The notes under the pieces are model-generated. The model made no database searches and had not been told where the DNA came from. It was given only the letters and a program-made list of their open reading frames with translations. A DNA stretch of 64,000 bases from Myceligenerans pegani (lineage in GTDB: Bacteria; Actinomycetota; Actinomycetes; Actinomycetales; Cellulomonadaceae): the NCBI RefSeq assembly GCF_014892515.1, contig NZ_JADBGR010000093.1, positions 18,108 through 82,107 of the forward strand, given 5' to 3'. A program made the translations under genes and the position numbers. How positions within the stretch are numbered: the first letter of the stretch is position 1; every line of letters begins with the position of its first letter. Below, piece by piece: positions 15,687-22,680 of the stretch.

Positions 15687-16394
15687 ATGGGGCGGTACGG
15701 GCGTGTGATCGCCGTGACCGGTGCGATCGGCGGGGTGGGGACCACCGTGGCCGCCGCCGCGGCGGCACTCGGGCTGATCGGGCGCGGGGAGCCGGCGGCG
15801 CTCGTCGATCTCGACGCCGATGCGCCCGGCATCGAGTTGCTGCTGGGCATCGAGGACGTCCGGGGTGCGCGGTGGCCGGAGCTGTCCGCCGCCCGGGGAG
15901 ACGTCGACGGCGAGACCCTGGTGGCCGCCCTCCCGTCCTGGCGCGACGTGCCGGTGGTCAGCGGGAGGCGGCGTGCCGGGCCGCCGTCGGACGACGTCGT
16001 GCTCGACGTGTGCGCCGGGATCGTGCGATCGGGCCGGGCCCTGGTGCTGGATCTGCCGCGACCGAGCTCCTGGACGGGCGCGGCTCGCGCGCTGCTGGGC
16101 GGATGCGACACGGCGGTGCTGGTGACGCCGCTGACGTTTCCCGGCGCCGCGGGTGCCGAACTGGTGCGCGATCAGCTCGTCGCGGCCGGCGTGCGCGACG
16201 TGCGCGTCGTGGCGCGCGGACCCGCGCCGGGGCAGGTCGACCCGGACGCGCTCGGCGCGGCGCTCGGGCTGCCGGTGGACGGCATGCTGGAGCGTGACCG
16301 GTCGGTGCCGGCGGCGATCGAGCGGGGCGACGGGCTGCCCGCCGGCCGGGGTGCCGTGGCCCGGCTGGCGGCGAACCTCGGAGCTGCGCTGTGA
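15687..16394 (+). CDS. CpaE/TadZ-like ParA-fold protein (septum-site-determining type)
   Basis: A 235-residue MinD/ParA-fold ATPase-like protein that localises Tad pilus machines in other bacteria. AAGGGGG precedes ATG at 15687 by 6 bases. It starts directly with the P-loop-like IAVTGAIGGVGTTVAAAAA (about 9-27); the usual deviant Walker lysine is replaced (GAIGGVGTT instead of KGGVGKT), so ATP binding may be weak. DLDADAPGIELLLG is the switch region. The N-terminal receiver-like domain found in many actinobacterial homologues is missing. A short hydrophobic DNA-binding-like tail ends with ARLAANLGAAL. Its stop overlaps tadA by 4 bases (GTGA). It belongs to the helicase-neighbourhood CpaE family (TIGR03815, from memory). 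Confidence 0.85.
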   Translation: MGRYGRVIAVTGAIGGVGTTVAAAAAALGLIGRGEPAALVDLDADAPGIELLLGIEDVRGARWPELSAARGDVDGETLVAALPSWRDVPVVSGRRRAGPPSDDVVLDVCAGIVRSGRALVLDLPRPSSWTGAARALLGGCDTAVLVTPLTFPGAAGAELVRDQLVAAGVRDVRVVARGPAPGQVDPDALGAALGLPVDGMLERDRSVPAAIERGDGLPAGRGAVARLAANLGAAL

Positions 16395-17560
16395 CGGCGG
16401 GGGCACTCGACCCGGCGCTGCTGGACGACGTACGCGCTCGGATCGCGAGCGGCGGCGCGGAACCGTCCGACGCCGTCCGCGACGCGGTGCGGGACAGCGG
16501 GCTCGTGCTGGGCTCCGCCGCACTCGATGCGCTGGCCCGGACGACTCGGGCCGAGCTGCTGGGCGCCGGTCCGCTGCAGCACCTGCTCGAGGAGCCCGAG
16601 GTCACCGACGTGCTGGTCAACGGGCCCGACGGCGTCTGGCTGGATCGGGGCCGCGGCCTCGAACGGATCGGTATGTCCCTGGGGACGACGGCGGACGTGC
16701 GGGCGCTCGCCGTACGGCTCGCGGCGATCGGTGGGCAGCGCCTCGACGACGCCCAGCCCAGCGTCGATGCGCGCCTGCCCGACGGAACGCGACTGCACGC
16801 GGTTCTCGCGCCCCTCGCACCGGCAGGGGCGGCGATCTCGCTCCGGGTGCTGCGGGCGCGCGCGTTCTCGCTCGACGAACTCGTGGCGAGCGGCGCCCTG
16901 CCGGACGACTGGGCCGGACTGCTGCGGGCGCTCGTGGAGCGGCGGGCGAACATCGTCGTCAGCGGAGGCACGGGAAGCGGGAAGACGACGCTCCTCGCGG
17001 CTCTGCTGTCCCTGGCCGGGGAGGACGAGCGGATCGTGACGGTGGAGGAGGCCCGTGAGCTCGTGCCCGACCACCCCCACGTGGTGTCCCTGGCCACGCG
17101 ACGCGCCAACATCGAGGGCGCCGGTGGCATCGACCTCGCCGGCCTCGTGCGGGACGCCCTGCGGATGCGACCCGACCGGATCGTGCTCGGCGAATGCCGC
17201 GGGGCCGAGGTCCGCGAGGTGCTCCTGGCCATGAACACCGGACACGACGGCGGCCTCGCGACCCTGCACGCCAACGCCGTCGCGGTGGTTCCGGCGCGGC
17301 TGGAGGCGCTCGCGGCGCTTGCCGGGATGCCGCGGGAGGCGGTGGCGGCACAGGCCGCCGGGGCGCTCGACGTGGTGCTGCACCTACGGCGCGAGCGGGG
17401 CGTGCGGTTCCTGGCGGAGATCGGTGTGGTGGGCCGGGACGAGCGCGGTGAGCTCGTGGTGCGGCCGGCGGCGTGGTGGGACGGCCGCGGAGCCGTCGAG
17501 CTGGATCCGCCGGTGTGGCGCGAACTGGCCGGACGGTTCGGCCCGTGGTGCGCGTCGTGA
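16391..17560 (+). CDS. tadA: TadA/CpaF-type secretion ATPase
   Basis: The cytoplasmic hexameric ATPase that drives Tad/Flp pilus assembly or related secretion. It has 389 residues and starts at GTG 16391 inside the preceding stop. An N-terminal domain (about 50-160) carries VTDVLVNGPDGVWLDR. The Walker A is VVSGGTGSGKTTLL (about 188-201). The Asp box RIVTVEEARELV, the Walker B region RMRPDRIVLGECRG and the His box HDGGLATLHAN are all intact, so an active ATPase is expected. It overlaps the next gene by 4 bases (GTGA). It matches the helicase/secretion-neighbourhood ATPase family rather than the enterobacterial GspE group. Confidence 0.93.
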   Translation: MTAGALDPALLDDVRARIASGGAEPSDAVRDAVRDSGLVLGSAALDALARTTRAELLGAGPLQHLLEEPEVTDVLVNGPDGVWLDRGRGLERIGMSLGTTADVRALAVRLAAIGGQRLDDAQPSVDARLPDGTRLHAVLAPLAPAGAAISLRVLRARAFSLDELVASGALPDDWAGLLRALVERRANIVVSGGTGSGKTTLLAALLSLAGEDERIVTVEEARELVPDHPHVVSLATRRANIEGAGGIDLAGLVRDALRMRPDRIVLGECRGAEVREVLLAMNTGHDGGLATLHANAVAVVPARLEALAALAGMPREAVAAQAAGALDVVLHLRRERGVRFLAEIGVVGRDERGELVVRPAAWWDGRGAVELDPPVWRELAGRFGPWCAS

Positions 17561-18762
17561 CGGGCGGGGACCAGGGGTCGTCGGCCGTCCTGGCCGGAAT
17601 TCTGCTGGCGGTGGCCGTGTACCTCGGGTTCGCGCCGGTCGGGCGACGGGTGCGTGAGCTCGGGATCCGGCCGCGTGGCGCTGCGGCGCCGGGAGTCTCC
17701 CGGCAGGGCGCACGGAACGGAGCACCCCGGCTCGGCGCTCGGAATGCAGGGCGGGACGGAGTCAGGCGGGACGGAGCCAGGCGGGACGGAGGAAGGACCC
17801 GTGCGGCGCGCGCCTCGCGCACCGGGCGTCCCGCACCAGGCGCCTCTGTGCGCGTGGTCGTGCTGCAGGTGGTCGCTCTGCTGCGGGCGGGAGTCGCACC
17901 CGCGACGGCGTGGGCGCGAGCGGCCGGGATCCCGGTGGACCCGACCGGAGCACCCGACGGCGAGGCGCTGGGACCACTGCTCGGACCGGGGAACGCGCGG
18001 GCGGTCGTGGCCGCGAACCGGCTCGCGCTCGACGTCGGTGCCCCGCTGGGCCGGGTCCTGGAATCCGTGGCGGACTCCCTCGTGCGGGAGGCCGAGGCGC
18101 GTGCCGAACGCGATGCCGCGATCGCCGGGCCGCGGACGACCGCACGCGTCATTCTCTGGCTGCCCGCGGCCGGTGCCGGACTCGGGTGGCTGCTCGGCGC
18201 CGACATGGTCGGCGTCGCGACCGACGGGGGCCTCGGCACCGTCGCGACGGTGCTGGGCACGGCGTTCCTGTTCGCGGGACGGACGTGGTCGGCGCGACTC
18301 GTGGCACAGGCGCGCGACCGGCCGCGCGACCGTGAGATCGACGTGCGCGTGGTGCTCGACCTGCTGGCCGCGGCCCTCGGTGCGGGCGCCGGCGTGCCAC
18401 GGGCGCTCGGTGCGGTCGGGCACGCGGCGGGCGGGAACCACGGGACCGCGCTCCGGGCGGCAGCCGACGCGCTCGTGCTCGGCGCCGGCTGGGAACAGGC
18501 ATGGGCGGGCACCTCGGAGGTGCTCGCACCGGTGAGGCGCGCGCTCCGCAGCGCCTGGATCGACGGCGCGGCGCCCGGAGCGGCGCTGCGTGCGGCGGGC
18601 GAGGAGCTCCGGCGGGACCGGAGCGCCGCAGCGCGGACCGCCGCCGCACGGCTCGGTGTGCGGCTGGTGCTTCCCCTCGGGTGCTGCTACCTGCCGGCGT
18701 TCGTCCTGGTCGGGATCGTCCCGGTACTGCTCGCGCTCGGGACCGACCTGTTCGCCGCCTGA
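17557..18762 (+). CDS. Fused TadB-TadC type II secretion F-domain protein
   Basis: An integral membrane platform protein of 401 residues, start GTG 17557 within the tadA stop. Residues about 7-27 form one membrane helix, then comes a basic linker with an RDG-rich triplet repeat. A first T2SSF-like domain (about 90-180, with LLRAGVAPATAWARAAG and LALDVGAPLGRVLESVADSL) is followed by two hydrophobic segments. A second F domain (about 265-400, with LDLLAAALGAGAGVPRALGAVG) ends in a membrane helix LPLGCCYLPAFVLVGIVPVLL. In most Tad systems TadB and TadC are separate genes of about 300 residues each; here both appear compressed into one chain. It lies between tadA and the pilin-like gene, as expected for the platform. 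Confidence 0.82.
   Translation: MTGGDQGSSAVLAGILLAVAVYLGFAPVGRRVRELGIRPRGAAAPGVSRQGARNGAPRLGARNAGRDGVRRDGARRDGGRTRAARASRTGRPAPGASVRVVVLQVVALLRAGVAPATAWARAAGIPVDPTGAPDGEALGPLLGPGNARAVVAANRLALDVGAPLGRVLESVADSLVREAEARAERDAAIAGPRTTARVILWLPAAGAGLGWLLGADMVGVATDGGLGTVATVLGTAFLFAGRTWSARLVAQARDRPRDREIDVRVVLDLLAAALGAGAGVPRALGAVGHAAGGNHGTALRAAADALVLGAGWEQAWAGTSEVLAPVRRALRSAWIDGAAPGAALRAAGEELRRDRSAAARTAAARLGVRLVLPLGCCYLPAFVLVGIVPVLLALGTDLFAA
17751..17795 (+). repeat. 15-bp tandem repeat in the TadBC linker
   Basis: Three near-identical copies of GCGGGACGGAGNCAG encode an Arg/Asp/Gly-rich run (GRDGVRRDGARRDGG) between the first membrane helix and the first F domain. Being a multiple of three, it preserves the frame. 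Confidence 0.75.
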
Positions 18763-18835: not shown

Positions 18836-19174
18836 ATGACGGACACCAGGATCACCGCTCCGGACGAGCACGGCGCGGGTGGTGCCGACGCAGGTGGTGC
18901 CGACGCGGTCGGTGCACGACAGGTCCCGGCCGGGGCGCACGGTGCGCGAGGGTTCCCGCCCGGCGCGGGCGCTGCGCGACCGGTTCCGCCCGGCGCGCGT
19001 GGCGGGCGGCGTGCCCCGGGGCGCGACCCCGAGGCCGGGATGGCCACGGCGGAGTACGCGATCGCGACGCTCGGCGCGGCGACGTTCGCCGGCCTGCTCA
19101 TGGCCGTGCTCCAGGGCGGTGACGTGCAGTCGTTGCTCACGTCGCTGATCACGACGGCGCTCTCGGCGGGCTGA
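18836..19174 (+). CDS. DUF4244 pilin-like small protein
   Basis: A 112-residue Flp-pilin-like protein, start ATG 18836 behind GAAGGAGG. The first 65 residues are an Ala/Gly/Pro/Arg-rich low-complexity leader with imperfect repeats (GGADAGGADAVGARQ, then ARGFPPGAG and ARPVPPGARG). The core is a prepilin cleavage-like site followed by one hydrophobic helix: EAGMATAEYAIATLGAATF. The Glu five residues after the presumed cleavage Gly fits type IV/Flp prepilins. The leader is far longer than the 6-20 residues usual for prepilins. The gene lies three bases before tadE and is the likely major filament or pseudopilin subunit of this locus. Confidence 0.8.
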   Translation: MTDTRITAPDEHGAGGADAGGADAVGARQVPAGAHGARGFPPGAGAARPVPPGARGGRRAPGRDPEAGMATAEYAIATLGAATFAGLLMAVLQGGDVQSLLTSLITTALSAG

Positions 19175-19176
19175 GG

Positions 19177-19527
19177 ATGGCCGCGCACCGGGATGCGGAG
19201 CGAGGGGCGGTGACGGCCGAGCTCGCCGTCGCGCTTCCCGCCGTCGTGCTGGTCCTGGTCGCGGTGCTCACGCTCGTGGCCGCGTCCGTGGCGCAGATGC
19301 GCGCCGTGGACGCGGCCCGGGCGGGGGCCAGGGCGGTCGCGATCGGCGAGGAGGAGGCGGTGGTCGCTCGGGTGGTCGGACGGGTGGGCGGTGACGATGC
19401 GGAACTGTTGATCGACCACGACGGCGACTGGGTACGCGTGACCGTCACGAAACCCGTCGTGAACGGATGGACCGCCGCCGGCCCGCTACGGGCCCGCGGA
19501 ACCGCGACGGCCTGGGTGGAGCCATGA
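19177..19527 (+). CDS. tadE: TadE-like pseudopilin
   Basis: A 116-residue TadE-like protein, start ATG 19177, two bases after the previous stop. DAERGAVTAELAVALPAV is a prepilin-peptidase-like site with Glu at +5 from the cleavage point, leading into a 22-residue membrane helix (LPAVVLVLVAVLTLVAASVA). The exported part (about 40-116) has a small alpha/beta domain with DGDWVRVTVTKPV. It overlaps the next gene by 4 bases (ATGA). TadE pseudopilins support pilus assembly; a prepilin peptidase gene is not in this window. Confidence 0.88.
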   Translation: MAAHRDAERGAVTAELAVALPAVVLVLVAVLTLVAASVAQMRAVDAARAGARAVAIGEEEAVVARVVGRVGGDDAELLIDHDGDWVRVTVTKPVVNGWTAAGPLRARGTATAWVEP

Positions 19528-20468
19528 ATCGACGGGCCTCGGCCGGGGCCAAGAACCAGCGGACTTCGGCCGGGACCAGGAACCGGTGGGCCTCGGCCGG
19601 GGCCAGGAATCGGCGGGCCTCGGCCGACACCAGGAATCGGCGGGCGGCGGAGCGCGGCGCGGGAACCGTCCTGGTGCTCGGGATCATCGGCGTGGTGCTG
19701 GCGCTCGCCGCCGGGGTCGCCATACTCGGAGCCGCGCAGAACGGCCGCGGCGCGGCGCAGTCGGCAGCTGATCTCGGTGCGCTGGCAGGGGCGACTGCGC
19801 TCGGGGGCGGTCTCGACGCGTGCTCGACGGTGGCCGCCGCGGTCGCGCGCAACGGCGCGGAGGCGACGACGTGCGAGGTGGCGGCAGCGGGTGTGGTGCG
19901 CGTCGAGGTGCGTCGCCCGGTGGCGCTGCCCGGCAGGTGGTCCTTCCTCGGCGCCGCGCGCGCGGATGCCCGGGCGGGTCCTCGGCCTCCGGAGGCAGGC
20001 GAAGGGCTCCCGGTCCCGGGGACGGCGATGCCGCGGCACGTCGCCGGACGTGCGGCCGAAGCCGGGAACTACCGGAACGGCCGGATCCCGTCGCACCTCC
20101 TGTGCGACGTCTCGTTCGCGGCGGGGCAGAGGCTACGCTGCGACGCCGCCGTGGCGATCGAGCGGCTGAACGTGGCGTTCCGTGCGGCGTTCGGACGGGA
20201 TCTGGCGGTCCGCGATTCGTACCGGTCCTACGAGGCGCAGGTGGCGGTGGCGGCGAGCAAGGGCGCCCTGGCCGCCCCGCCGGGGACGTCGAATCACGGC
20301 TGGGGCCGGGCGGTCGACCTGAGTGGCGGCATCCAGTACTTCGGCACCGCCGAGCACCGGTGGATGGTCGCGAACGCCGGCGTGCACGGCTGGAACCACC
20401 CGGAGTGGGCGGGACCCGGCGGGTCCAAGCCGGAGGCCTGGCACTGGGAGTACGGCACCGCGGGGTGA
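19524..20468 (+). CDS. TadG-like membrane anchor fused to VanY/M15B D,D-carboxypeptidase
   Basis: A 314-residue fusion, ATG 19524 overlapping the tadE stop. Residues 1-42 are a basic repeat-rich cytoplasmic leader. Residues about 43-80 are the helicase-neighbourhood TadE/TadG-like helix (ERGAGTVLVLGIIGVVLALA, then QSAADLGALAGATAL). After an external Cys-pair domain and linker, residues about 170-314 are a peptidase of family M15B: SxHxxGxAxD appears as SNHGWGRAVDL and the third zinc ligand as EAWHWEYG, so the zinc site is complete. Such enzymes trim peptidoglycan stem peptides outside the membrane. Fused to a Tad pseudopilin, it could open the wall where the apparatus passes. I know the two families separately; the combined role is inference. 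It ends the operon. Confidence 0.85.
   Translation: MNRRASAGAKNQRTSAGTRNRWASAGARNRRASADTRNRRAAERGAGTVLVLGIIGVVLALAAGVAILGAAQNGRGAAQSAADLGALAGATALGGGLDACSTVAAAVARNGAEATTCEVAAAGVVRVEVRRPVALPGRWSFLGAARADARAGPRPPEAGEGLPVPGTAMPRHVAGRAAEAGNYRNGRIPSHLLCDVSFAAGQRLRCDAAVAIERLNVAFRAAFGRDLAVRDSYRSYEAQVAVAASKGALAAPPGTSNHGWGRAVDLSGGIQYFGTAEHRWMVANAGVHGWNHPEWAGPGGSKPEAWHWEYGTAG
19533..19640 (+). repeat. Four 27-bp tandem repeats in the TadG-VanY leader
   Basis: Units at 19533, 19560, 19587 and 19614 differ by only a few bases. Each encodes a nine-residue unit of the form RASAGARNR, giving a strongly basic cytoplasmic leader. Copy number could vary without changing frame. Confidence 0.9.
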
Positions 20469-20501: not shown

Positions 20502-20527
20502 CTACGAAACGTAGTATCCCTACTACG
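20502..20527. promoter_or_regulatory. Nested inverted repeats upstream of the ABC exporter operon
   Basis: CGTAGTA-TCCC-TACTACG (20510-20527) is a perfect inverted repeat, overlapped on the left by CTACG-AAA-CGTAG (20502-20514). The TAGTAT/AGTAT segments are the only -10-like sequences nearby. This is 19 bases upstream of the ABC gene start and a likely operator for a repressor. Confidence 0.6.
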
Positions 20528-20545
20528 AAGAGTATGGAGGGTGTG

Positions 20546-22443: not shown

Positions 22444-22680
22444 GTGGGCGAGACCACCACCGACGTCGTCCACAACCGCATCGCGATGCTCCGCGCCGAG
22501 CGGGGGATCTCGCGGCGCGAGCTCGCGGAGGCGCTCGGGGTGCACTACCAGACGGTCGGCTACCTGGAGCGAGGGGAGTACAGCCCGTCGCTGTACCTCG
22601 CGCTCCGGATCGCCGAGTACTTCGGCGTGGCGGTCGAGGTCGTGTTCTCGACACGCCCGTTCAAGCGACTCGGCGAGTGA
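22444..22680 (+). CDS. Small XRE-type helix-turn-helix regulator
   Basis: A 78-residue single-domain DNA-binding protein of the YgzD/YozG-like group, start GTG 22444. RIAMLRAERGISRRELAEAL is helix 1-2 and GVHYQTVGYLERGEYSPSL contains the recognition helix; the C-terminal EYFGVAVEVVFSTRPF is typical. Such proteins often sit at the end of ABC-2 exporter operons and repress them. The palindromes at 20502-20527 are the candidate target. A strong hairpin follows. Confidence 0.88.
   Translation: MGETTTDVVHNRIAMLRAERGISRRELAEALGVHYQTVGYLERGEYSPSLYLALRIAEYFGVAVEVVFSTRPFKRLGE

Follow-up and report, generated by a model that had tools for sequence, protein, structure and literature searches.

By what means type IV filaments get through the meshwork of the Gram-positive cell wall is a named open question (PMC6916266; PMC13192262), and one gene in the DNA analysed here (the window, a 64,000-nucleotide stretch of the genome of the soil bacterium Myceligenerans pegani) raises the question whether a Tad apparatus may bring its own peptidoglycan enzyme to that wall. 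As the initial annotation had proposed, the last gene of the Tad operon encodes a TadG-like part and a complete M15B zinc peptidase in a single frame, which matches both TIGR03816 and PF02557 and contains the motifs SNHGWGRAVDL and PEAWHWEY. The operon is arranged in the order ssd/tadZ, tadA, tadBC, DUF4244 (Flp-like), tadE and tadG, with the fusion gene in the last position:

15687–16394, plus strand: ssd/cpaE/tadZ-like ATPase (TIGR03815 under its cut-off, 129.8 against 154.45 bits)
16391–17560, plus strand: tadA ATPase (TIGR03819, 452 bits)
17557–18762, plus strand: tadB-tadC in one frame, platform protein (two T2SSF stretches; start set by hand within the open reading frame 17473–18762)
18836–19174, plus strand: DUF4244 protein (PF14029; processing-like motif G/MATAEYAIAT read from the sequence)
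19177–19527, plus strand: tadE minor pilin (NF041390 TadE_Rv3655c)
19524–20468, plus strand: tadG-M15 fusion gene, 314 amino acids (open frame and domain matches)

Judged by its sequence, the DUF4244 protein is probably the Flp major pilin, and the joining of tadB and tadC in one frame has also been reported for the tad-2 cluster of M. luteus (PMC4322843).

The frame from 19524 to 20468 is free of stops over 314 codons, and its ATG overlaps the tadE stop codon as ATGA. The same overlap between the tadE stop and the tadG start is found in all four Myceligenerans species (ATGA in three, GTGA in one), and the fusion gene is translationally coupled to tadE. The high G+C content of the DNA, which yields long open frames on many frames, and a single in-frame ATG at residue 169 of the window copy would be compatible with two genes, or a sequencing frameshift, wrongly joined into one. 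However, the same in-frame fusion is present in 4 of the 4 Myceligenerans genomes examined, which were sequenced independently, where the other three copies are 70–75% identical to the window copy and the linker tolerates indels. The ATG at residue 169 is absent as a conserved start in the other species, and a protein begun there would have no export signal; comparison of the four Myceligenerans copies revealed no internal start that is conserved, and within the gene a sigma-70-like promoter was looked for and not found. An artefact is thus hardly credible and was rejected, and the reading as one gene stands. In a codon alignment of the four copies, dN/dS is 0.22–0.34 for the Tad part, 0.21–0.38 for the M15 part and 0.39–2.7 for the linker, which also varies in length. 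Both domains are under purifying selection while the linker is not, and this pattern, together with the length changes, indicates two selected domains on a flexible tether.

The product is predicted to be a pilus component and a wall enzyme at once, with the following parts:

19524–19649, plus strand: Arg/Asn-rich leader, putatively cytoplasmic, residues 1–42 (mostly a 27-bp tandem repeat, in the copy of this species only)
19650–19982, plus strand: pilin-like TadG/Rv3654c module, residues 43–153 (TIGR03816; AlphaFold models)
19983–20054, plus strand: flexible linker, residues 154–177 (low model confidence at 154–164; neutral or relaxed dN/dS)
20055–20465, plus strand: M15B/VanY-type zinc peptidase domain, residues 178–314 (PF02557; fold match to LdcB/VanXY/VanYB)
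20295–20318, plus strand: zinc ligands His258 and Asp265 in SNHGWGRAVDL (invariant in 51 sequences; spaced as His153/Asp160 of SpLdcB)
20433–20444, plus strand: catalytic Glu304 and zinc ligand His307 in EAWH (invariant in 51 sequences; spaced as Glu204/His207 of SpLdcB)

The 27-bp tandem repeat (4.6 copies, 19521–19645), which the other three species lack, codes for the repeated ASAGxRNRR of the leader. The N-terminal leader of the DUF4244 protein is also built of repeats (30 bp, 18910–18998).

The N-terminal module matches the NCBIfam family TIGR03816 (Rv3654c-family TadE-like) over residues 43–153 and the full profile (1–109 of 109), with 54.3 bits against a curated cut-off of 50.95 bits. 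The Pfam Tad family PF13400 falls just under its cut-off in the window copy (20.9 versus 22.3) and exceeds it in the M. indicum orthologue (23.2). With a full-model score over the cut-off and a place after tadA, tadBC, DUF4244 and tadE, the protein belongs to the Rv3654c/TadG-like family. The AlphaFold model of the fusion protein consists of a long helix, a short helix and three strands (residues 18–150), a disordered stretch (154–164) and then the peptidase domain, and modelled alone the N-terminal module has a mean pLDDT of 72.8. The “TadG-like membrane helix” of the initial annotation was thus right as to TadG/Rv3654c and too narrow as to the helix, as a whole pilin-like module is found at residues 43–153. 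In the models, its layout of a helix and three strands appears to be that described for CpaL (PMC12607857). Foldseek returned nothing significant for the module alone, and VIA-align gave weak and mixed matches, namely a competence pilin (6qvf, Z 6.7) and GspI (3ci0, Z 4.3), among unrelated pantothenate synthetases of equal or higher Z.

The glutamate at position 5 of processed pilins is absent from the Rv3654c/TadG family, in which Leu, Val or Ile takes the +5 position in the 45 of 68 sequences that have the motif (Leu in the window copy). By this residue the protein does not look like a classical processed type IV pilin, and the label “pseudopilin” previously given to it goes beyond the evidence. 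The tip pseudopilin GspK is not known to have Glu5 either; the absence of this residue counts against a place among the classical processed pilins alone, to which TadG-type and GspK-type members may be exceptions. The same absence of Glu5, a hydrophilic leader whose last residue ahead of the hydrophobic helix is G, and the one prepilin peptidase gene found in this genome would suit a processed protein displayed at the pilus tip like CpaL or KilN, the M15 domain of which would face away from the cell, either binding peptidoglycan as an adhesin or attacking neighbouring cells as an enzyme. TadG-type modular pilins have also been modelled as the tip backbone (PMC12075869, PMC12607857). However, TadE/TadF of M. 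luteus were not detected in pilus preparations (PMC4322843), and Myceligenerans has no known link to predation; display at the tip is a rather unlikely role.

The C-terminal part matches the Pfam family VanY (PF02557) at residues 203–310 (E 1.1e-8, 35.4 against a cut-off of 25 bits), and in an alignment of 51 sequences His258, Asp265, Glu304 and His307 are invariant, in agreement with the expectation that orthologues retain the zinc ligands. Their spacing equals that of S. pneumoniae LdcB, in which His153, Asp160 and His207 are the zinc ligands and Glu204 is the counterpart of Glu304 (PMC4087270). The domain is modelled with a pLDDT of mostly about 94–98, and its fold matches the L,D-carboxypeptidase BaLdcB (Z 13.5), VanXYg (13.1) and VanYB (12.5), the next folds being well below, while VanY-type D-Ala-D-Ala carboxypeptidases are the only matches in a sequence search of the PDB. 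Its score over the cut-off, LAS fold and correctly spaced His-Asp-His ligands and catalytic Glu place it in peptidase family M15B; the active-site motif is intact, and the domain is a putatively active enzyme. Fold, zinc ligands and catalytic Glu are shared with the M15B carboxypeptidases LdcB/DacB and VanY/VanXY (4mph, 4jid, 5hnm, 4f78; PMC4087270), which, however, are stand-alone enzymes with no pilus protein attached, whereas the Myceligenerans domain is fused.

The family TIGR03816 is widespread, being detected in 146 of 150 genomes of the family and 170 of 198 of the class. Proteins joining TadG and M15 at the end of Tad operons were found in all four Myceligenerans genomes examined, and no further Tad-M15 fusion turned up among 59 relatives or among 297 genomes from the order and 396 from the phylum, where the best candidates per genome were scored and rare distant fusions could escape. 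The Rv3654c family, which includes the TadG-like proteins of actinobacterial tad operons, resembles the fusion in N-terminal module and operon position; however, the other TIGR03816 loci fetched have a short end after the module, a low-complexity tail or a run-on open frame, and none contains the M15 domain that the Myceligenerans fusion has. Several other M15 proteins give long alignments to the fusion that start at residues 6–60; these were rejected as Tad fusions, as the Tad profile finds no Tad domain in the fetched loci and their N-termini are Ala-rich or coiled. In several relatives (eight loci) no stop closes the tadG frame, which stays open for some 500 codons or as far as the locus reaches; this may be a high-GC antisense frame of a convergent gene further downstream, or the protein may truly be longer.

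In the sister genus Promicromonospora, the locus is collinear with that of Myceligenerans over a stretch that begins with a HAD phosphatase gene, includes tadG and reaches the ABC transporter and XRE genes. The Promicromonospora tadG ends within 10–16 residues of the Tad module and contains no peptidase, and the DNA right after its stop codon resembles the DNA after the Myceligenerans peptidase, which indicates that tadG of Myceligenerans gained the peptidase domain at its 3' end. Closest to this domain are a secreted M15 protein that stands alone in the same genomes (73–77% identity over the domain) and the M15 proteins of Promicromonospora. In the M15 tree, the fusion copies form one clade (support 95/92), the paralogues another (96/92), and both join with the Promicromonospora enzymes in a clade supported by 98/95; in one single-contig Myceligenerans genome, 40 kb separate the paralogue from the fusion. 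The closeness of the domain to the secreted M15 protein of the same genomes indicates an origin by duplication and grafting: the passenger was gained a single time, at the base of Myceligenerans or close to it, as a duplicate of the secreted M15 domain placed on the end of tadG.

Retention of this close paralogue, and the fact that carboxypeptidases are general wall-maintenance enzymes, would also be expected if the TadG helix were a mere membrane anchor, providing together with its promoter a home for one more copy of some housekeeping carboxypeptidase that has no functional link to the pilus. This is quite improbable, as the Tad module is itself under purifying selection at the dN/dS given above, the whole operon is intact with the fusion coupled to tadE, and among the TIGR03816 matches listed for this genome no other one exceeds the cut-off. 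Transformation of the actinobacterium M. luteus requires the TadG-like genes at the end of a tad operon (PMC4322843), and with this single match the fused protein presumably also does the work of TadG.

The Arg-rich leader and the single hydrophobic helix suggest an N-in/C-out orientation, from which we infer that the peptidase would face the wall. The preferred reading, which has about an even chance of being correct, is that the fusion protein is a minor pilin of the TadG type, modular in build, which carries a cell-wall enzyme as its passenger and trims the wall where the pilus forms. The N-terminal module would sit in the membrane, with the leader inside and the C-terminus outside, and would perform the job of TadG in the Tad/Flp pilus, while the flexible linker would hold an active M15B zinc carboxypeptidase on the side that faces the wall. 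There the enzyme would trim stem peptides of the peptidoglycan next to the assembling pilus and lower the local cross-linking, which would make it easier to extrude the pilus through the thick wall or to anchor it there. Of the tasks that the passenger might have, local stem-peptide trimming is the most likely. Most M15B enzymes are carboxypeptidases, which trim stem peptides and do not cut holes; those with the LdcB/VanY-type fold, a fold of L,D- and D,D-carboxypeptidases, remove the terminal D-Ala and leave the glycan strands uncut. Against a role in wall passage, M15B carboxypeptidases alone cannot open a pore. As tadG is unfused in close relatives whose operons are syntenic, Tad systems in general can do without the enzyme; it is a genus-specific addition or refinement and no general solution. 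The suggestion that the fusion would solve the passage through a thick wall is plausible, and it is somewhat doubtful that an enzymatic modular pilin, giving the Tad apparatus a built-in peptidoglycan enzyme, remodels the wall at the very place of filament passage.

In S. sanguinis, the wall hydrolase LytF raises extracellular pilin and promotes pilus extrusion, and has been proposed to aid the pilus across the Gram-positive wall (PMC13192262), a role to which the one proposed for the fusion can be likened. LytF, however, is a separate secreted protein of the competence pilus and is not fused, whereas the Myceligenerans peptidase is fused to TadG. LytF is not known to be an M15 carboxypeptidase. 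Modular pilins with grafted domains are well known and have been described mainly for adhesion (PMC6916266, PMC10191384). PilB and PilC of Streptococcus sanguinis carry a foreign domain on a pilin by way of a short linker, as the fusion does, but belong to type IVa pili and have adhesive passengers (vWA, lectin-like), whereas the Myceligenerans passenger is of enzyme type (PMC6916266, PMC10191384). Among Tad systems, CpaL of Caulobacter crescentus is a pilin joined to vWA (PMC12607857), and in models of pilus tips TadG proteins expose a modular domain at their C-terminus (PMC12075869). CpaL and the TadG/KilN tip proteins share with the fusion the Tad locus, the predicted layout of the N-terminal pilin-like module (long helix and three strands) and a C-terminal passenger, which is vWA in CpaL and structurally unassigned domains in KilN, in contrast to a peptidoglycan zinc peptidase in the monoderm Myceligenerans.

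The protein is best classed with a known kind, as a modular minor pilin like CpaL, and is new in its peptidoglycan-enzyme passenger, for which no precedent was found in the literature searched. No description of a fusion of a Tad pilin with an M15 carboxypeptidase and no paper on a Myceligenerans pilus was found there (subscription papers were outside its scope), which bears out the earlier remark that the fusion is not a described Tad component. A pilus-operon protein bearing a wall enzyme makes the wall-crossing question testable by one zinc-ligand mutation that leaves the TadG part intact, with Promicromonospora, the unfused sister genus, as a natural control. Such a protein would also widen modular pilins from adhesive to catalytic passengers, and a built-in enzyme that remodels the wall right at the crossing point would, if real, directly explain in molecular terms how a pilus passes a thick Gram-positive wall.

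The same genome encodes a second Tad-like locus (contig C89, 56440–57591), which contains two TadE genes and a TadG-like gene with no peptidase. A protein on contig C97 (1366–2346) has a Tad-like N-terminus, with PF13400 under its cut-off for the whole protein, and a C-terminal part of about 230 residues with no Pfam family match; it is a candidate for a second modular protein. The fusion gene is followed by an ABC transporter operon, the last gene of which encodes an XRE regulator (22444–22680). Between the two lies the palindrome CGTAGTA-TCCC-TACTACG (20505–20530), which is partly present in Promicromonospora as well and is possibly the operator of the XRE regulator.
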